From positions 1,984,001 to 2,048,000 of the forward strand of contig NZ_AP021889.1 of NCBI RefSeq assembly GCF_011398355.1: a stretch of DNA of 64,000 nt, in the 5' to 3' direction. A model generated the notes under the pieces. It saw only the letters and a list, made by a program, of their open reading frames with translations. It did not search any database and had not been told where the DNA came from. Positions within the stretch are counted from its first letter, which is position 1. Each line of letters opens with the position of its first letter. This DNA is from Thiosulfatimonas sediminis. GTDB taxonomy: Bacteria; Pseudomonadota; Gammaproteobacteria; Thiomicrospirales; Thiomicrospiraceae. The translations under genes were made by a program, and so were the position numbers. Shown in pieces: positions 6,672-16,411 of this stretch.

Positions 6672-6734
6672 TCTTACCAACCACACTTATCTGTGAATAA
6701 TTAGGTGCCCACGTATTTTAAATGGGCACTTATT

Positions 6735-7085
6735 ATGACAGACACACTATCAACGCTTCCCACAGTCAAAAAGATTCGCCGTCGCTACTCACGGGAATTC
6801 AAACAGCAGGTTTTGACCGCTTGCGAGGACCCTAACACCTCGATTGCACAAGTGGCTCGAGACTACGGCATCAATGCCAATCAAATACAGAACTGGAAGC
6901 GTCAGCTTAAAAAACGCCATGCTTCCCAAGCGGCATTTATTCCGCTGGTCTTGAACGATCTGCCGCCGTCATCGCCTCAAACGCTCTTGGTCGAACTGCC
7001 TGCACCTCAAGGCAAGATTGCTGTGCACTGGCCTGTCACAGAATTGGCCAAATTAAGCGCCTTTGTCAAGTCGGTGCAGTCATGA
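6735..7085 (+). CDS. tnpA: IS66-family accessory protein TnpA (helix-turn-helix)
   Basis: 116 residues from ATG 6735. Residues about 15-60 form the helix-turn-helix typical of IS66 Orf1 and IS3 OrfA proteins (RRYSREFKQQVLTACEDP, then IAQVARDYGINANQIQNWKR). It probably binds DNA and assists transposition, although the exact role in IS66 elements is not settled. The stop overlaps the tnpB start as ATGA, indicating translational coupling. Confidence 0.92.
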   Translation: MTDTLSTLPTVKKIRRRYSREFKQQVLTACEDPNTSIAQVARDYGINANQIQNWKRQLKKRHASQAAFIPLVLNDLPPSSPQTLLVELPAPQGKIAVHWPVTELAKLSAFVKSVQS

Positions 7086-7411
7086 TTCGCATTGATCATT
7101 ATTGGCTGGCGACTGAACCCATGGATATGCGTGCAGGACCCGATACCGCATTAGCTCGTGTCATTGCCGTGTTTGGTGAGGCCAAGCCCCATCATGCGTA
7201 TCTGTTTGCCAATAAGCGTGGCAATCGAATGAAGATACTGATCCACGATGGCTTAGGCATCTGGCTGTGTGCTCGACGTTTGAATCAAGGTAAATTCCAT
7301 TGGGCTGAGCTGTGGCGCGGCGATTCCGTGACACTCTCACCTGAACAATGTCTGGCTCTGGTGCAAGGCTTGCCTTGGCAACGGCTCGAGACTTCCTTAT
7401 CACTGAGTTAG
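7082..7411 (+). CDS. tnpB: IS66-family accessory protein TnpB
   Basis: 109 residues, the usual size for IS66 Orf2. The signature regions are present: WLATEPMDMRAGPDTALARV near the start, HHAYLFANKRGNRMKIL and LCARRLNQGKF in the middle. The protein is required for efficient transposition of studied IS66 elements, but its biochemical activity is not established. It is coupled to tnpA by a 4-bp overlap and followed 17 bp later by tnpC. Confidence 0.93.
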   Translation: MIRIDHYWLATEPMDMRAGPDTALARVIAVFGEAKPHHAYLFANKRGNRMKILIHDGLGIWLCARRLNQGKFHWAELWRGDSVTLSPEQCLALVQGLPWQRLETSLSLS

Positions 7412-7428
7412 TCTTTATAATCCGCGGC

Positions 7429-9003
7429 ATGAAAACAATGCCAAACCTCCATCAACTCTCTGCCGACCAGTTACGAACACTGGCGGCGCAGTTATTCATT
7501 CAGGTCGAGACTCAAGAAGCTCGTCTTCAAGAAAAAGACCAACGCATTGCGGCCAATGCCAAAGAGATTCAGCACAAGACCCTAAAAATCGATCAACTCA
7601 CCTATGAGTTAGCCTATCTCAGACGTTTAAAATTCTCACACAAAAGTGAACAGATCAGCGCCTTACAGATGACACTGTTGGATGAAGTGACCGATGCCGA
7701 CATTGCGGCGATTGAATCGGAACTGGATGCGCTTAGAGACAAAACCGACACAGCGCAACCAAAGAAAAAACCTAAGCGTCAGCCGCTACCCGAAAACCTA
7801 CCTCGTCTTGACATCCGTCATGATCCCGAATCCACCACCTGTTCATGTGGCTGTCAATTACGCCATATTGGTGAAGACGTCAGTGAGAAGCTGGATTATC
7901 TGCCCGGGACGTTTCAAGTGGAACGTCATATTCGCTCCAAATGGGCGTGCGATGCCTGTGAAACTCTGATTCAAAAACCGATGCCCCCACAAATCATTGA
8001 CAAAGGTCTGCCAACCTCTGGGTTACTCGCACATCTGCTCATCGCCAAATACGCTGATCACTTACCGCTGTATCGTCAAGCTCAGATCTTTGAACGGGCC
8101 GGTGTTAAATTACCCAGTTCCACTTTAGCCGAATGGGTCGGCGTCTGTGGTGTTCAACTTGAACCGGTGGCTCAAGCACTCAAAGACTTTTTGCTGACGC
8201 AACCGGTCTTGCACGCCGATGAAACCCCAGTGCCCATGCTCAAGCCGGGGAATAAGAAAACCCATAAAGCCTATCTGTGGGCCTACACCAATCCAGCCAA
8301 TGCACAACATAAGGCGGTGTATTACCACTTTAGTGAAGGACGAAACGGCAAGTTTGCACGAGAAGTGCTGCAAGACTGGAAAGGCGCACTGGTGTGTGAT
8401 GACTATCCTGGGTACAAAGCCAGTTTTAAACAAGGCGTGACCGAAGTCGGTTGCATGGCGCATGCCCGTCGTAAGTTCGTGGAACTGCATGAAAGCGGCA
8501 AAAGCACGATTGCCATTCAAGCCATTGAACTAATGGGGCAACTTTACGCGATTGAAAAAGAGATTCAACCCTTAGCCCCAGAGGAACGACAGACCATTCG
8601 GCAGCAAAAATCCAAACCGATTATGGACTTGCTGCTCAAATGGCTGCAGGTCCATCGAGAAAAAGTGCCCAAAGGTGGGGCAACGGAAAAAGTGATTCAC
8701 TATAGCCTGAAACGTTGGGATGCCTTAAGCCGATACCTCGGAGATGGCCGCCTGCCCATCGATAATAACTGGGTGGAAAATCAAATCCGACCTTGGGCGT
8801 TAGGTCGCAAGAATTGGCTGTTTGCCGGCAGTCTGCGCAGTGGTCAACGTGCGGCGAATATTATGAGCTTGATTCAATCGGCCAAGAATAACGGCCTGGA
8901 TCCTTACGCCTATCTCAAAGACGTGCTTGAACGCTTGCCCACCCATAAAGCCAGTCAAATCGACCAACTCCTACCGCACAATTGGCAACCTAGCAACCGG
9001 TGA
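7429..9003 (+). CDS. tnpC: IS66-family DDE transposase TnpC
   Basis: 524 residues from ATG 7429. In order: an N-terminal coiled coil (about 10-75, the IS66 leucine-zipper region), a zinc-finger-like segment (CSCGC, later CDAC), then the DDE catalytic domain with HADETPVPML, VCDDYPGYKASF and the Glu region DNNWVENQIRPWALGRKNW, and the short C-terminal IS66 tail. It catalyses strand transfer at the terminal repeats. All motifs are intact, so the element may be active. The stop lies inside the right inverted repeat. Confidence 0.95.
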   Translation: MKTMPNLHQLSADQLRTLAAQLFIQVETQEARLQEKDQRIAANAKEIQHKTLKIDQLTYELAYLRRLKFSHKSEQISALQMTLLDEVTDADIAAIESELDALRDKTDTAQPKKKPKRQPLPENLPRLDIRHDPESTTCSCGCQLRHIGEDVSEKLDYLPGTFQVERHIRSKWACDACETLIQKPMPPQIIDKGLPTSGLLAHLLIAKYADHLPLYRQAQIFERAGVKLPSSTLAEWVGVCGVQLEPVAQALKDFLLTQPVLHADETPVPMLKPGNKKTHKAYLWAYTNPANAQHKAVYYHFSEGRNGKFAREVLQDWKGALVCDDYPGYKASFKQGVTEVGCMAHARRKFVELHESGKSTIAIQAIELMGQLYAIEKEIQPLAPEERQTIRQQKSKPIMDLLLKWLQVHREKVPKGGATEKVIHYSLKRWDALSRYLGDGRLPIDNNWVENQIRPWALGRKNWLFAGSLRSGQRAANIMSLIQSAKNNGLDPYAYLKDVLERLPTHKASQIDQLLPHNWQPSNR

Positions 9004-9018
9004 TTGCCGGACGCTTAC
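8999..9018 (-). repeat. IS66 right terminal inverted repeat
   Basis: Read on the minus strand it is GTAAGCGTCCGGCAATCACC. The tnpC stop codon lies within it, and the second copy of TATTATTC follows directly. Confidence 0.93.
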
Positions 9019-9232
9019 TATTATTCACAATTAACTCTTTTTTAATCTCATGGTCTGGCATGGAAATTATGACAACTTACAAAATTCACCTTTTCCCAGA
9101 CAATTTAATTTTCATAGCAAGCTTTGCAGGCTACGGTGTCATAATCTATTTATTCGGAAGGTACGGAATTTGGCCTTTTAGACCCATCCAACGCCTTAAG
9201 ATAGCGTTGAATGAGATGAACCAGCAATAACG

Positions 9233-11155
9233 TTAATTTTTAGGGTTTGACTTAAACACCTCTTCGAACATCGGCACCAAGAATTTATTGCCGTATTCAC
9301 TGAGATGGTCATCGTCATAGTAAAGTGGACGGCCGTTTTTTGAGCCATAGCAATATTTGTCATCACAGAGATAAGGCAATGGGTTCAATATTTTTGCTCC
9401 ACACTCAGCTGAAGCTTTATCCTGAGCCTCCCAAACAACCTTATTTACTTGATGATATTCATCTAATGAGATTTTTATATCATCACTTTCTCTACCAAAA
9501 ATAATATTTCTTGATAACGTTTTAGGGACATTAACAGGCATTCCAGGTATCGGTCTAGTCAGATATACATCTTTTGATTCTGCGTAGTGGCAAGTCTGTT
9601 TAACTAAAGAATTCACAAACTCATCCGAATTTTTAAATGTGTGTGACCAAGATGTGTTAACTATAAATAAAGGGATATTTTCTTGGTATTTTTCAATATA
9701 CTTCATTGTTGTGTTATTTGGACCTATACATGATTGAGCTTTTCCATATTCTGAAATAAAAAATGGGCAACCATGCATCCCACCTAAATATAGCACGCTT
9801 TGATTAAACTCATCAGCAGCTTCAAATATTGCACCAGCAACAGCCTCTGAGTGTGAGTCCCCAATAATTATTGCATTAGGTTTGTTTTCTTTTTTATCAC
9901 TAACAATACCGTTAGCAAATAAGCATTCATCATAGCTATCTGAAAAGTGCCTATATCTACAGGAACGAGCTTCCCAGTTACGGTTTGTACTTTCTGATGC
10001 CGCAATGTCAATAGAACGTTCAACTCTATCGGAAAATGTTACATTTTGAATAGCAATGCTAACGAGCAGGAGTATTGATGCAACTGCTGAAATCAATGAA
10101 ACTTCTTTAATTAGATGCGATTTAGTTAGATATTTACGCGTTGGAACTTCAACAAACTTATAAGACAAGTGTGCTAAAACAATACTCAAAATGAAAGCCC
10201 CAATCACCCAACTCCATGTGTTTTGTAAGCTCGAAAAATATAGGGCGACGACTAAGGGCCAATGCCAAAGGTATAAAGAATAAGAGCGGTCACCCAACCA
10301 TTGAGCAAGTTGATTGTCTGTTAATTTACAATTTTCACGGTGTCCTAAAATTATCAGACTAGTTCCAAGAACAGGTACAGCAGCCCAAAATCCTGGCCAA
10401 GAAAGGCTTTCATTTATAAAAAAGAAACTGATAAGAATTAATATCCAGCCAACCCAGTAACCATTTTTCTTTAGGGCTTCTGGCGCAAATCCTTGTTTTG
10501 CTGTTAAATAAACTAAACTACCAGCTAGCAACTCCCAAGCACGGGAAGGTATCAAATAAAAAGCGCCGCTTGGATTTAGTGTGATTAGAAAATTGCTGAT
10601 AGAAAAAGACAATACGAAAACAACTAAAACTCCAATAGTCAAAGCTCTTATATTCTGCCAATATCGCCATATCAGAGAAACAAAAATGGGATACAAAATA
10701 TAGAATTGAGCTTCTACCGCCAATGACCAAGTATGAAGTAACCATTTTTCTTGAGAAGCAGTATCAAAATATCCAGCCTCTCGCCAAAAAAACATATTTG
10801 AGAGAAATCCTATCCCGTATGCTGACTGAGCACCTAACGCTTGATAATCGGGTGTTGGCAACCAAAACCAACCTAATGCTAGTAACACGGCTATGACAGC
10901 GAGTAAAGCGGGCAAAATCCTTCTGGCACGTGCCATATAGAATTTCCAAATGGAAAAGTTCCCTTTCTCATAACCACCCACAATGATTGCAGTCATCAAA
11001 TAACCAGAGATAACAAAGAAAACATCGACCCCAGCAAAACCACCAGGCAAACCAATTAATGAAAAGTGAAATAAAAGAACAGCAATCACTGCCCATGCAC
11101 GCAGACCGTTAATATCCTCTCTGAACTTAACGGGAGAAGGTAAATGTTGATACAT
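9233..11155 (-). CDS. Acyltransferase-3 / SGNH O-acetyltransferase (OatA/OafA-like)
   Basis: 640 residues. The N-terminal 380 or so form an acyltransferase-3 membrane domain of about ten helices, starting with FREDINGLRAWAVIAVLLFH, with GVDVFFVISGYL and RARRILPALL. The C-terminus is a periplasmic SGNH esterase-like domain with GDSHSEAVAG and the His block DDDHLSEYGNKF. Two-domain proteins of this kind O-acetylate surface polysaccharides or peptidoglycan; the acceptor is unknown. The SGNH half is visibly richer in A+T than the membrane half and the neighbouring core genes, which fits a variable surface-modification gene. It ends 2 bp from the end of the IS-interrupted gene, tail to tail. Confidence 0.88.
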   Translation of the reverse strand: MYQHLPSPVKFREDINGLRAWAVIAVLLFHFSLIGLPGGFAGVDVFFVISGYLMTAIIVGGYEKGNFSIWKFYMARARRILPALLAVIAVLLALGWFWLPTPDYQALGAQSAYGIGFLSNMFFWREAGYFDTASQEKWLLHTWSLAVEAQFYILYPIFVSLIWRYWQNIRALTIGVLVVFVLSFSISNFLITLNPSGAFYLIPSRAWELLAGSLVYLTAKQGFAPEALKKNGYWVGWILILISFFFINESLSWPGFWAAVPVLGTSLIILGHRENCKLTDNQLAQWLGDRSYSLYLWHWPLVVALYFSSLQNTWSWVIGAFILSIVLAHLSYKFVEVPTRKYLTKSHLIKEVSLISAVASILLLVSIAIQNVTFSDRVERSIDIAASESTNRNWEARSCRYRHFSDSYDECLFANGIVSDKKENKPNAIIIGDSHSEAVAGAIFEAADEFNQSVLYLGGMHGCPFFISEYGKAQSCIGPNNTTMKYIEKYQENIPLFIVNTSWSHTFKNSDEFVNSLVKQTCHYAESKDVYLTRPIPGMPVNVPKTLSRNIIFGRESDDIKISLDEYHQVNKVVWEAQDKASAECGAKILNPLPYLCDDKYCYGSKNGRPLYYDDDHLSEYGNKFLVPMFEEVFKSNPKN

Positions 11156-11494
11156 GAAAAATTAACTCTTAAAAACAAATAGATTGAATCATATACGAAA
11201 GTACTTATTGAGTCATTGCTATGAAGCTAAATTAATTTTCAAATGGGGACTTTGAAGTGAACCAACTGGTCACTTTACCTTTGGAATAGGTGATGCTTTT
11301 TACACTGGAAAGGTATGGTACTTTGAAGTGAAATACTCATCAATTTGACAGAGTATTTAATATTGCAGATTTAAACCTGTCATTGATAACAGTTATTTGC
11401 TGTAGATATTAAGGCAAAAAAATGCAGATTTCCATACATATATCTAGCTTTTTTTTAAATGCGATTTTAGCGCGCGCTTTTGAAGGAAATATTC
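11156..11494. other. Gene-free spacer upstream of the acyltransferase
   Basis: AT-rich sequence without a credible gene. The only pattern seen is the direct repeat ACTTTGAAGTGAA (near 11249 and 11330). A 49-codon frame starting at 11422 runs into the repeat array and is judged accidental. Confidence 0.4.
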
Positions 11495-11607
11495 GTTCCC
11501 ACGCAGGAGCGTGGGAACGAGATAAACCCGCCATCAAAGTAGATTGCCACGGCCTGAAGGCCTCGCAATGACCGTCGTTTTTTCTAGATGCCTAAAAACA
11601 AAAAAAC
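11495..11607. repeat. Composite intergenic repeat, copy 1
   Basis: The unit starts with the palindrome TTCCCACGC-AGGA-GCGTGGGAA, continues with AACGAGATAAACCCGCC, then GATTGCCACGGCCTGAAGG followed by CCTCGCAATGACCGTC (a second imperfect palindrome), and ends in CTAAAAACAAAAAA, which leads into a terminator-like stem. Copies 2 and 3 are nearly identical. It resembles REP-type intergenic repeats rather than genes. Confidence 0.85.
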
Positions 11608-11632
11608 CAGCGCAAAGTCTGGTCTTTTCTTA
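11605..11632 (-). terminator. Terminator-like stem after repeat copy 1
   Basis: ACCAG/CTGGT stem; on the minus strand it is followed by the T-rich TTTTTTTGTTTTTAG. It is one of four non-identical stems in the same setting downstream of ilvC. Confidence 0.5.
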
Positions 11633-11687
11633 AAACTTTTTTCGAGGCGTTTTGCTGAAGATTGAGACATTTTTATGGGAAGTATGC

Positions 11688-11798
11688 ATTCCCACGCGGG
11701 AGCGTGAGAACGAGATAAACCCGCCGTTAAAGTAGATTGCCACGGCCTGAAGGCCTCGCAATGACCGTCGTTTTTTCTAAATGCCTAAAAACAAAAAA
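11688..11798. repeat. Composite intergenic repeat, copy 2
   Basis: Same unit as copy 1, starting 193 bp later. It has GCGTGAGAA in place of GCGTGGGAA and CTAAATGCC in place of CTAGATGCC. It is preceded by GCGTTTTGCTGAAGATTGAG and a tail also found before copy 3. Confidence 0.85.
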
Positions 11799-11818
11799 GA
11801 GACTCTAAGCCTCTTTTG
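11793..11818 (-). terminator. Terminator-like stem after repeat copy 2
   Basis: AAAAGAG/CTCTTTT stem followed on the minus strand by TTTTTTGTTTTTAGG. The stem differs in sequence from the neighbouring stems while the T-tract is the same. Confidence 0.5.
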
Positions 11819-11850
11819 CATTCCCACGCAGAAGTGTGGGAACGAGATAA
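11819..11850. repeat. Partial copy of the composite repeat
   Basis: Only the first palindrome and the AACGAGATAAA tail are present, with changes in the loop (CACGCAGAAGTGTGGGAA). It sits directly after the terminator-like stem of copy 2. Confidence 0.75.
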
Positions 11851-11901
11851 ATTTTAGCGAGCGTTTTGCTGAAGATTGAGACATTTTTATGGGAAGTATG
11901 C

Positions 11902-12013
11902 ATTCCCACGCGGGAGCGTGGGAACGAGATAAACCCGCCGTTAAAGTAGATTGCCACGGCCTGAAGGCCTCGCAATGACCGTCGTTTTTTCTAGATGCCT
12001 AAAAACAAAAAAA
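11902..12013. repeat. Composite intergenic repeat, copy 3
   Basis: Same unit, 214 bp after copy 2, including the shared 40-bp leader (GCGTTTTGCTGAAGATTGAG onward) at 11861-11900. The almost perfect identity over leader plus unit points to a recent tandem duplication. Confidence 0.85.
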
Positions 12014-12030
12014 CGGCATAAAGCCGGTTC
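12006..12030 (-). terminator. Terminator-like stem after repeat copy 3
   Basis: CGGC-ATAAA-GCCG stem; the minus strand then reads TTTTTTTGTTTTTAGG, the same T-rich tail as the other stems. Confidence 0.55.
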
Positions 12031-12055
12031 TTCAAACATTCAATTTTAGCGAGCG

Positions 12056-12136
12056 TTTTGCTCAAGGTCGAGGCGCTTTTCGGGGAAGTGTACAACTAGT
12101 ACACAACTCGGAAAGCAACAAAGAGATTGAGCTAAC
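12056..12136. repeat. Long imperfect hairpin A with GTGTAC/GTACAC core
   Basis: Arms of roughly 37 nt surround the core GTGTAC-AACTA-GTACAC. TTTTGCTCAAGG on the left mirrors TTGAGCTAAC on the right, and GCGCTTTTC mirrors GGAAAGC. Its left arm is related to the leaders of repeat copies 2 and 3 (TTTTAGCGAGCGTTTTGCT). Confidence 0.7.
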
Positions 12137-12148
12137 AAGCCATCTAAA

Positions 12149-12178
12149 AACAAAAAAACCGACATATAGCCGGCTTTC
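12149..12178 (-). terminator. Weak terminator-like stem between hairpins A and B
   Basis: CCG/CGG based stem (CCGACATATAGCCGG) followed on the minus strand by TTTTTTTGTTTTTAG. It is the first such T-tract met by transcripts leaving ilvC, after hairpin B. Confidence 0.45.
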
Positions 12179-12200
12179 TAAGACAATCCTAAAAAGGAGA

Positions 12201-12285
12201 TAGTTTGTTCGAGTTCAAGGCGCTTTTTGGCGACGTGTACATCGAGTACACGAGCTAAAAAGCAACACAGAAATCGGGCAAACTA
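12201..12285. repeat. Long imperfect hairpin B with GTGTAC/GTACAC core
   Basis: Same family as hairpin A and better paired: TAGTTTG mirrors CAAACTA, GCGCTTTTTGGC mirrors GCTAAAAAGC, and the centre is CGTGTAC-ATCGA-GTACACG. It lies 16 bp after the ilvC stop, so it would form at the 3' end of the ilv mRNA. Confidence 0.75.
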
Positions 12286-12300
12286 GACCTTTTTAAAAAA

Positions 12301-13320
<1,020 letters not shown>

Positions 13321-13388
13321 TTATCCTTAAATCAAAGGCGGAATCGCTTCCGCCGTTAGTTACATAAAAAGTGTTTTGTACGCGTGTC

Positions 13389-13883
13389 TTAGCTAAGCTG
13401 TAGACACTTTTCACCACGAAGAATCCCCATGGTGCCAGAGCGCACGGTTTCCAGAATCAATCCGGAATCCAAAATTTTGATAAACGCATCGAGTTTGGTG
13501 CTGTCACCAACCATCTGAAGGGTATAAGTGGTGCTGGTAACATCAATAATGTCGGCACGGAAAATATCCGCTAAACGCTTATATTCCTCACGCATTTCAC
13601 CGGTTGCGGCAACTTTGATTAACATCAGTTCGCGTTCAATGTGCGCACCTTCTGTTAAATCCAGCACCTTAACCACGTCGATAAGACGGTTAAGGTGCTT
13701 AACGATCTGCTCAATCTCCTGCTCGGTACCCGAGGTAACCAAGGTTAGGCGCGACAAAGATTCGTCTTCCGTTGGTGCGACCGTTAAAGCGTGAATGTTA
13801 TATCCGCGAGCGGAAAACAAGCCTGAGACACGGGATAGCGCGCCTGATTCGTTTTCCATCAGCATTGAAATAATATGTTTCAT
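13389..13883 (-). CDS. ilvN: Acetolactate synthase small (regulatory) subunit
   Basis: 164 residues. The N-terminal ACT domain (MKHIISMLMENESGALSRVS, GYNIHALTVAPTED) binds valine for feedback control, and the C-terminal domain activates the large subunit. Length and motifs match the IlvH/IlvN family. A ribosome site AAAGGGG lies upstream of the ATG. It starts 15 bp after ilvB, consistent with coupled expression. Confidence 0.96.
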   Translation of the reverse strand: MKHIISMLMENESGALSRVSGLFSARGYNIHALTVAPTEDESLSRLTLVTSGTEQEIEQIVKHLNRLIDVVKVLDLTEGAHIERELMLIKVAATGEMREEYKRLADIFRADIIDVTSTTYTLQMVGDSTKLDAFIKILDSGLILETVRSGTMGILRGEKCLQLS

Positions 13884-13898
13884 CTTGTGTTTGCCCCT

Positions 13899-15602
13899 TT
13901 ACACCAAAATCATCTCATTCAAACCTGCGCCCGCCGGAATCATTGGGTACACGTTCTCTTGTTGATCGGTGAGGATGTCTACAAACACCAAACGGTCTTT
14001 ATATTTCTCGGAGAAAACTTCATCCAACTGCGCTTGCATGGTTTTTGGATCTTCAATACGCACGCCAACGTGGCCGTAAGATTCCGCCAACTTAACGAAA
14101 TCCGGTAAAGAGTCCATGTACGACATCGAGTAACGACGCTCATAGAAGAACTCTTGCCACTGACGAACCATCCCTAAGAACCCATTGTTCAAACAGATGA
14201 TCTTGACCGGCAATCCATATTGTAAACAGGTGGACAATTCTTGAATATTCATCTGAATTGACCCTTCACCAGTGACGCAAACGCTGATTGCGTCAGGATG
14301 TGCCATTTGCACACCCATCGCCGCCGGTAGACCAAATCCCATGGTACCCAAACCGCCAGAGTTAATCCAACGACGTGGTTTTTCAAACGGGTAATACTGC
14401 GCTGCGTACATTTGGTGCTGACCAACATCCGAAGATACATAAGCATCACCGTTGGTTGCTTTCCAGACAGCCTGTACTGCCGCTTGCGGTTTAATCTTTT
14501 TGCCCGTGGTGTCGTAACGCAAACAGTTCGTGGCACGCCACTCTTCAATCTGCTGCCACCAGTCCGCCAAAGCCGCCTCGTCCTTTTGCTGTTTGGTGTT
14601 ATCCAAAACTTGAATCATCTCTGTTAAGACTTGCTTAACCGGACCAACAATCGGTATATCGACAATCACGTTTTTCGAAATCGATGCAGGATCAATATCG
14701 ACATGAATGATTTTGGCGTGCGGGCAGAATTTTTCCAGATTACCGGTAACGCGGTCATCAAAACGCGCGCCTATGGCAATGATGACATCCGAATGATGCA
14801 TCGCCAAATTCGCTTCGTAAGTACCGTGCATTCCCAACATACCTAACGCTTGTTTATCAGAAGCCGGAAAAGCCCCCAATCCCATGAGCGTTTGATTAAT
14901 CGGGAAGCCCAATTTACGCGTTAGCGTTGTCAGTTCCTCAGAAGCGTCACCTAAAATGACACCACCACCGGTATACAGAATCGGACGTTTTGCAGAAAGC
15001 ATCATTTCCACGGCTTTCTTAATCTGTCCACTATGGCCTTTTGTTACAGGCAAATAGGAGCGTATCTCAACTTCTTGTGGATAGACATAGTTGCTTTTGG
15101 CGTTTTGAACATCTTTCGGAATATCAACGACAACCGGGCCTGGTCGACCTGTTGTGGCGAGATAGAAGGCTTTTTTGAGCGTCTCTGCCAGATCATTAAC
15201 ATCCTTGACCAAGAAGTTGTGTTTTACGATTGGTCTGGTAATCCCGACAGTATCAATCTCTTGGAACGCATCCAAACCGATTAATGCTGTTGGCACCTGT
15301 CCGGTAATGCACACCATTGGAATCGAATCCATATAGGCGGTTGCAATACCGGTAACCGCGTTAGTCGCGCCAGGGCCGGAGGTTACCAAAACCACTCCTG
15401 GTTTACCTGTAGAGCGCGCATAGCCGTCTGCCGCATGGACAGCCGCCTGTTCGTGACGCACCAAAATATGATTTAGGGTTTTTGCGTCCGTATCTAGGGC
15501 ATCGTAAATCGGCAGTACTGCACCGCCCGGATACCCCCAAATATGCTCTACGCCCTCGTCTTGTAAAAAGTGGACAAGAATTTGGGCACCAGTCATTTCC
15601 AC
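13899..15602 (-). CDS. ilvB: Acetolactate synthase large (catalytic) subunit
   Basis: 567 residues; ThDP-, FAD- and Mg-dependent condensation of pyruvate with pyruvate or 2-oxobutyrate. The N-terminal ThDP domain has [14 protein letters not shown] and the catalytic Glu in [14 protein letters not shown]. The central domain has [20 protein letters not shown]. The C-terminal ThDP-binding motif is [14 protein letters not shown]. The start is a GTG (15602) with AGAGGA 8 bp upstream; an ATG two codons later is possible. It opens the ilvBNC operon. No attenuator-like leader peptide was seen in the 250 bp upstream. Confidence 0.97.
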
Positions 15603-15853
15603 AACAATGGTCCTCTTTGGTTATAGCCAAGTCACCAACAATGGATTACATAGGGCGACTTAGAGAAAAAATCGACGCCCGAACAACATACGCCGTTCAG
15701 GCAGTGAACGCGAAATTATATAGGAAATAAAAAGGCATTAGAACCGTAAGCGATTCTTTTTTCATCTATTTTTTCTATTCCTTGTCATTCGGCAGAAAGG
15801 TTTTTTATCTTCGGCTATTTTACGCCACACACAAAAGGCCACACAAACCGCTT

Positions 15854-16411
15854 TTAGACGCTCTGAAACGAGGTAGCGAACAGTCCTTTTCGGTAGTGAT
15901 TAAGTTCGTCAATCGACTCCAAAATGTCGTCCATCGCCAAATGACTGCCCTGTTTTTGATGGGCGCTATAGACCGCGGGCGCCCAACGTCGTGCCAACTC
16001 TTTTAAAGTACTGACATCCAAATTACGATAATGAAAAAACGCCTCCAATTGCGGCATATGTTCGACCATAAAACGGCGATCTTGGCAGATCGAATTACCA
16101 CACATTGGTGATTTACCGGCCGGCACATAGTCGCTCAAAAACGCGATGGTCTGCTGCTGTGCTGCTTCCATGCTAATTTCACTGGCCTGAACACGTGCCG
16201 TCAGACCGGAATTACCATGATGCGTCACACACCAGTTATCCATCTTATCCAACTCACTTTGCGCGGTCTGAATCGCCAGAACAGGCCCCTTGGCAAGGAT
16301 ATTTAATTGACTGTCGGTGACCACCGTCGCAATCTCAATAATGGTGTGCTCTTTTGGATCCAGGCCGGTCATTTCCAAATCAATCCAAATTAAGTTGTTA
16401 TCTGACTTCAT
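15854..16411 (-). CDS. orn: Oligoribonuclease
   Basis: 185 residues from ATG 16411; the frame is open further upstream, but that part is not family-like. Orn degrades 2-5 nt RNAs, including pGpG, the product of c-di-GMP hydrolysis. DEDDh exonuclease motifs are visible: IDLEMTGLD at the start, the [10 protein letters not shown] block, and [11 protein letters not shown] with the catalytic His/Asp. It is divergent from the M48 protease gene, with 55 bp between starts. Confidence 0.95.

Follow-up and report, generated by a model that had tools for sequence, protein, structure and literature searches.

The window, that is, the whole 64,000-nucleotide stretch of DNA analyzed here, comes from the genome of a sulfur-oxidizing bacterium, which consists of a single contig of 2,722,826 bp. 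On its minus strand the ketol-acid reductoisomerase gene ilvC is followed, in the same direction of transcription, by an acyltransferase/SGNH gene. The gap between the two is 1.1 kb, and an array of hairpins and terminators occupies positions 12300-11490 of the window, on the ilvC strand. The nearest named records to this IlvC, at 88% identity, are from Thiomicrorhabdus species (in a listing from which this genome and its very close neighbors may be missing), and identity reaches 98% in other genomes of the window's genus. Two genes from the array there is a complete-looking IS66-family insertion sequence (window 6705-9003; HTH_Tnp_1, TnpB_IS66, DDE_Tnp_IS66). Beyond the array, at 11246-11332, GG(G/T)ACTTTGAAGTGAA occurs twice, 71 bp apart, possibly as insertion-sequence remnants.

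Reading away from ilvC, the elements follow in the order full hairpin 1, T1, full hairpin 2, T2, REP-B, REP-A, half hairpin, REP-A, T3, REP-B, REP-A, half hairpin, T4, REP-B, and REP-A (Table 1). An earlier note on this DNA had listed three composites, a partial copy, two long hairpins, and four short stems, and all were recovered using the sequence, a repeat survey, and a terminator finder. The three near-identical 110-bp composites fall within repeat family D1 (11454-11627, 11647-11820, and 11861-12034), the last two copies of which are 93% identical over 174 nt. Units are of two kinds: T1 and T2 stand behind full long hairpins, and T3 and T4 behind truncated half-hairpins fused to the composite. 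Folding of the 821-nt minus strand is 9.1 s.d. below dinucleotide shuffles. Tandem Repeats Finder reported no repeats in the array, presumably because the units are too divergent.

Table 1. Features of the array behind ilvC, in the direction of transcription
Feature	Position in window	Strand	Evidence and remarks
ilvC (ketol-acid reductoisomerase)	12301..13317	-	ORF of 338 aa; Pfam KARI_N and KARI_C; upstream of array
Full hairpin element 1	about 12191..12290	-	R1 88 bits, E 3.8e-18; R2 90.6 bits; starts ~10 nt past ilvC stop codon
Terminator T1	12144..12179	-	Stem AGAAAGCCGGCTATATGTCGGTTTTTT and T-tract TTTTTTTGTTTTTAG; terminator finder and tail pattern
Full hairpin element 2	about 12044..12143	-	R1 107.9 bits, E 3e-23; R2 93.6 bits
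Terminator T2	11999..12030	-	Stem CGGCTTTATGCCG and T-tract; terminator finder and tail pattern
REP-B hairpin, copy 1	11934..11990 (pattern 11947-11979)	-	GGTCATTGCGAGGCC TTCA GGCCGTGGCAATCTA; CGTC-REP-like
REP-A hairpin, copy 1	11899..11933	-	TCTCGTTCCCACGC..GCGTGGGAA
Half hairpin element 3, 3' arm only	11852..11905	-	nhmmer, model positions 48-101, E 1.5e-7
Extra REP-A (the "partial copy")	11817..11851	-	Repeat family D2; contains GTTCCCACGC hairpin only
Terminator T3	11785..11813	-	Stem GAGGCTTAGAGTCTC and T-tract; terminator finder and tail pattern
Composite copy 2	11685..11776	-	REP-B 11733-11765, REP-A 11689-11710
Half hairpin element 4, 3' arm only	11643..11691	-	nhmmer, model positions 48-96, E 9e-5
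Terminator T4	11592..11629	-	Stem CCAGACTTTGCGCTGG and T-tract; terminator finder and tail pattern; stem and flank similar to unit 1 of G030
Composite copy 3	11465..11583	-	REP-B 11540-11572, REP-A 11496-11517; distal junction remnant common to G028

At four sites on the ilvC strand, a G+C-containing stem runs directly into a T-tract on the transcribed strand, as in intrinsic terminators. The four short stems differ, and TTTTTTGTTTTTAG lies directly 3' of each of them on the minus strand, just as the earlier note had it. Its reading of these tails as T-tracts for transcripts leaving ilvC also agrees with the four terminators recovered there, at which termination is predicted. Genome-wide, the tail CTAAAAACAAAAAA occurs exactly four times in 2,722,826 bp, always in the array (11592-11605, 11785-11798, 11999-12012, and 12144-12157), and there are no occurrences on the other strand or of a reversed control pattern. 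None of the four stems has another match in the genome (15-20 nt queries, of limited power). The REP-B pattern has three copies genome-wide, all in the array, and REP-A has two further dispersed copies elsewhere; the composite was not found dispersed elsewhere in this genome.

Related genomes carry the repeats in numbers that differ (one to four units, depending on the species), as the earlier reading would have it. Of 63 genomes of the family searched at the DNA level, 40 gave matches, in many of these behind ilvC, and we compared the stretches downstream from ilvC from 54 further genomes (one genome per species, some of them MAGs). Immediately behind the ilvC stop codon, a ~100-bp hairpin is present in 23 of the 31 ilvC-bearing genomes of the genus (G000, which is the genome of the window, G023-G033, G035-G037, G042, G043, and G047-G052), with a terminator nearly always next. 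It is absent from the other eight, and is thus not essential. Hairpin and terminator occupy the same place behind ilvC in Cocleimonas, a different genus outside the family's list. About half of the 23 genomes, the window's included, have two to four copies, with a unit period (terminator included) of about 140-240 bp, and G023 has an additional partial copy. There are four copies in G050 and G042 and three in G032 and G027; adjacent units are 96%-98% identical in G050, G032, and G027, 92% in G042, and 38%-80% in the others, and this range indicates that amplification happened repeatedly, in some cases recently and in others long ago. Thiomicrorhabdus ZW0627 has a single unit, with a counterpart of full hairpin 1 at the same position, and Thiomicrorhabdus NP51 has two.

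Two other features of these loci deserve mention. A 12-bp palindrome, ACCAGGCCTGGT or close variants, lies some 30-50 bp past terminators downstream from ilvC in G027, G032, and G050, and behind both ilvC and another gene in a further stretch (L005). It looks like a putative protein-binding site, and it is absent from the window's array. In a Methylophaga stretch (L068, 4834-4950), the hairpin core lies just upstream of ilvC, inside the operon and 15 nt past the stop codon of the preceding gene (probably ilvN, named by sequence reading).

Judged from sequence comparison, the ancestral unit is a ~100-bp hairpin situated 5-20 nt past the stop codon, plus a terminator. G028 has one composite (terminator, REP-B, REP-A, and the 3' end of a hairpin), the distal junction of which is as in the window's last composite. 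Because this junction is common to both, the REP-B/REP-A pair would have replaced the 5' arm of a hairpin before the window's lineage and G028 split. The resulting hairpin-REP hybrid is present three times in the array, each time behind a different terminator, and it would have multiplied in the window's lineage after that replacement. Near-identical TTTTTTTGTTTTTA(G) tails stand behind ilvC in G024, G026, G030, and G047, with a different stem, and so the tail is ancestral at this locus. In addition, two or more of the array's terminator regions have similar counterparts at ilvC in sister species. Unit 1 of G030 corresponds to T4 together with its upstream flank (AACGCCTCGAAAAAAGTTTTA..CCAG..CTGG), and unit 2 of G051 to the flank of T2. 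Given an ancestral tail and counterparts of T2 and T4 in sister species, constant tails with variable stems are more likely to reflect old divergence between units, followed by spread of the composite block by recombination across these heterogeneous units.

The earlier note had inferred several events rather than one, and this holds for the duplications. Repeated capture of terminators, by which stems from other loci would have been brought singly into a conserved tail, is not supported. The stems do differ from each other far more than the 93%-identical composite flanks, as capture would predict. However, the tail is found nowhere else in the genome, the short stem queries (with the limited power given above) have no further genomic match, and stems and flanks have their counterparts in the ilvC units of sister species, so that we regard capture as highly improbable.

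The long hairpin is not confined to ilvC. Its core is TCTGCGTTR ... YGCCTTGA, and an alignment of 33 ilvC copies, from which model R1 was built, gives a consensus with 23 pairs, 15 of which have changed on both sides. Of 32 genomes of the genus, R1 finds copies in 30, at 1-19 per genome (nine in the window's genome, at a lax threshold). In the window's family, 40 of the 46 non-ilvC copies whose surroundings were read are sense-oriented and no more than 25 nt behind a stop codon, compared with about three expected under a simple null. Recurrent host genes are rlmH, nrdA, and an MBL-fold hydrolase gene, and others are guaA, gap, purH, argB, aroC, and slyD (these names come from sequence reading, not from a family search). 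Tandem copies are common at these sites too, mostly lacking terminators between them. Behind the MBL-fold gene in G032 (L259), five hairpins follow each other at 105-bp spacing, the copies being near-identical and of two types in the order A-B-A-B-A. Rfam 15 (4227 models) gave no match in window 9000-16000 with E up to 1, and we found no description of the hairpin in the open-access literature on the motif, Thiomicrorhabdus ilvC, gammaproteobacterial MITEs, or the outer inverted repeats discussed below. The family is widespread and apparently unnamed.

Such placement raises the possibility that the hairpin acts as RNA within the 3' UTR, where a protein would bind it or it would slow terminating ribosomes, as reported for REP elements lying within about 15 nt of stop codons in E. 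coli, with selection acting on the mRNA. Sense orientation 2-20 nt behind the stop codon, recurrence behind the orthologous genes rlmH, nrdA, ilvC, and that of the MBL-fold protein, and the conserved internal-loop motifs are all consistent with this. Among 84 diverse copies, 90.8% of cells are paired compared with 61.5% after shuffling, and there are 544 double changes compared with 170 in shuffled and at most 151 in slid alignments; it should be noted that R1 was the model to which alignments A2-A4 were fitted, which biases pair counts toward it. The inner stem of 91 non-redundant copies has 610 Watson-Crick cells, 12 G-U, and 94 other, so that G-U accounts for 0.11 (12/106) of the non-Watson-Crick cells versus 0.18 expected at random (P = 0.08, with an approximate null), and is thus tolerated no better than other mismatches. 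The terminators at these loci contain 15% G-U and tRNAs 5%, but both comparisons are biased by finders that accept G-U, which leaves the within-alignment test as the only clean one. The rarity of G-U has one exception, a conserved T-G next to loop A, and this pair may belong to the motif.

Strong covariation with almost no G-U makes the stem pairing look constrained as DNA rather than RNA. Template-switch repair of palindromes could contribute to the pairing, although one would then expect the conserved loops to be lost. The strict sense orientation behind stop codons in the genus is a counterpoint, as a purely DNA-level element does not need it. Overall, we consider selection on an RNA element unlikely, since in the variable stems G-U is no commoner than any other mismatch, unlike in a normal RNA helix, and most of the copies examined in other lineages are not close behind stop codons. 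The few that are include copies behind groEL (G157) and ilvN (Methylophaga), both named by sequence reading.

Across a class-wide sample of 276 gammaproteobacterial genomes, R1 has matches in 19 and model R2 in 69; the R2 survey scored at most 14 candidates per genome, and several genomes have at least 14 matches. In G069, G096, G131, G266, G334, and others, longer palindromes enclose the core, and their outer inverted repeats are specific to the lineage. These palindromes are scattered and near-identical, and therefore look like MITEs; near-identical dispersed copies also occur in G235. Elements of ~240 bp with ends AGGGCCTGTTAACACT (or close) at L304 and L311 (both G131) and L301 (G274) seemingly comprise two family hairpins in opposite orientation.

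Near-identical dispersed copies (G069, G096, G235, G266, and G334) and lineage-specific outer repeats are what would be expected if the array were a landing and decay zone for selfish MITE/REP-like palindromes, which would have entered the site behind ilvC again and again because they do no harm there, and which would have no host role. The REP-B and REP-A hairpins sharing the same gap, and its expansion to 1.1 kb, also fit. Even so, we doubt this explanation: 23 of the 31 ilvC-bearing genomes of the genus, as well as Cocleimonas, have kept the hairpin behind ilvC, nearly always with a terminator, and persistence of this kind is unusual for neutral insertions.

The reading that we favor, and think probable, is that this stretch behind ilvC is a 3'-end module of ilvBNC that recombination has iterated, and in which each unit pairs a hairpin, formerly a mobile palindrome recognized as DNA, with a terminator, and the whole forms a redundant transcript end. 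The hairpin would have begun as a REP/MITE-like mobile palindrome recognized as folded DNA, then become fixed behind certain genes. Recombination or slippage, to which tandem copies and palindromes are prone, would then multiply it locally. Each terminator is predicted to catch read-through of the preceding one, the hairpins would block 3'-5' exonucleases and so protect the 3' end of the ilvBNC mRNA, and the downstream acyltransferase gene would be insulated by the array. A broader proposal, which we put forward as a speculation and consider unlikely, is that ~100-bp hairpins with conserved loops and Watson-Crick-matched, varying arms are recognized throughout the gammaproteobacteria as folded DNA by a putative host or transposon protein, are placed or maintained strand-specifically behind stop codons, multiply in tandem, and shape the ends of housekeeping transcripts.

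Among known systems, REP elements, BIMEs, and REPINs, with their GTAG and CGTC super-families (Rocco et al. 2013, PMC3733652; PMC3686654), are similar in being short extragenic palindromes, mostly behind genes, with variable stems and a tendency to clusters and tandem arrays. Unlike REPs, the long hairpin is ~100 bp, has conserved internal-loop motifs, and carries no GTAG or CGTC tag. Membership of the GTAG super-family was rejected, as inspection by eye showed no unpaired GTAG (GTRG) beside either the long hairpin or REP-A. CGTC-REPs are marked by an unpaired CGTC at one end and a stem starting with AT (PMC3733652). REP-B has the stem ATTGC..GCAAT, preceded by GGTC in the window and TGTC in G028. 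Mobilization of the hairpin by RAYT/TIRYT proteins was also rejected: of 30 Y1 (PF01797) loci examined in element-bearing genomes, one has an element within 1.5 kb, in a copy-filled genome, and no Y1 transposase gene was found in the window's genome.

MITEs such as ERIC and QMITE2 of Coxiella (PMC5896051) are imperfect palindromes of 100-190 bp, frequently situated in 3' UTRs or across the ends of genes, and resemble the longer palindromes that enclose the core in other gammaproteobacteria. Their marks, terminal inverted repeats and dispersed near-identical copies, are seen in G096, G131, G266, G334, and others, whereas the ilvC copies are only tandem, with terminators between them, are kept at orthologous sites, and have no outer inverted repeats that we could see. 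Serial intrinsic (Rho-independent) terminators share the four stems and T-tracts in the direction of ilvC transcription, but the repeat unit of the array adds a second, structurally conserved hairpin, and its iteration differs by species.

Integron attC sites likewise lie behind coding regions as imperfect palindromes, with structure conserved over sequence and the constraint on folded DNA, and in general terms the hairpin is alike in its placement and in being conserved more in structure than in sequence. It was rejected as an attC site because R'' RYYYAAC and R' GTTRRRY are absent at both ends of the A1 consensus (by eye), and there are housekeeping genes rather than gene cassettes. Most often, interspersed palindromes are linked with a transposase (REP and RAYT) or viewed as stabilizers of RNA. 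Here, one conserved core is both a dispersed repeat in several lineages and a retained tandem element right behind stop codons, with the same housekeeping genes recurring as hosts. The stems of this core vary freely yet avoid G-U, which allows a direct test of whether DNA or RNA is under selection, and the ilvC array provides a natural series of one to four units across sister species in which to follow the gain and loss of terminators at transcript ends.
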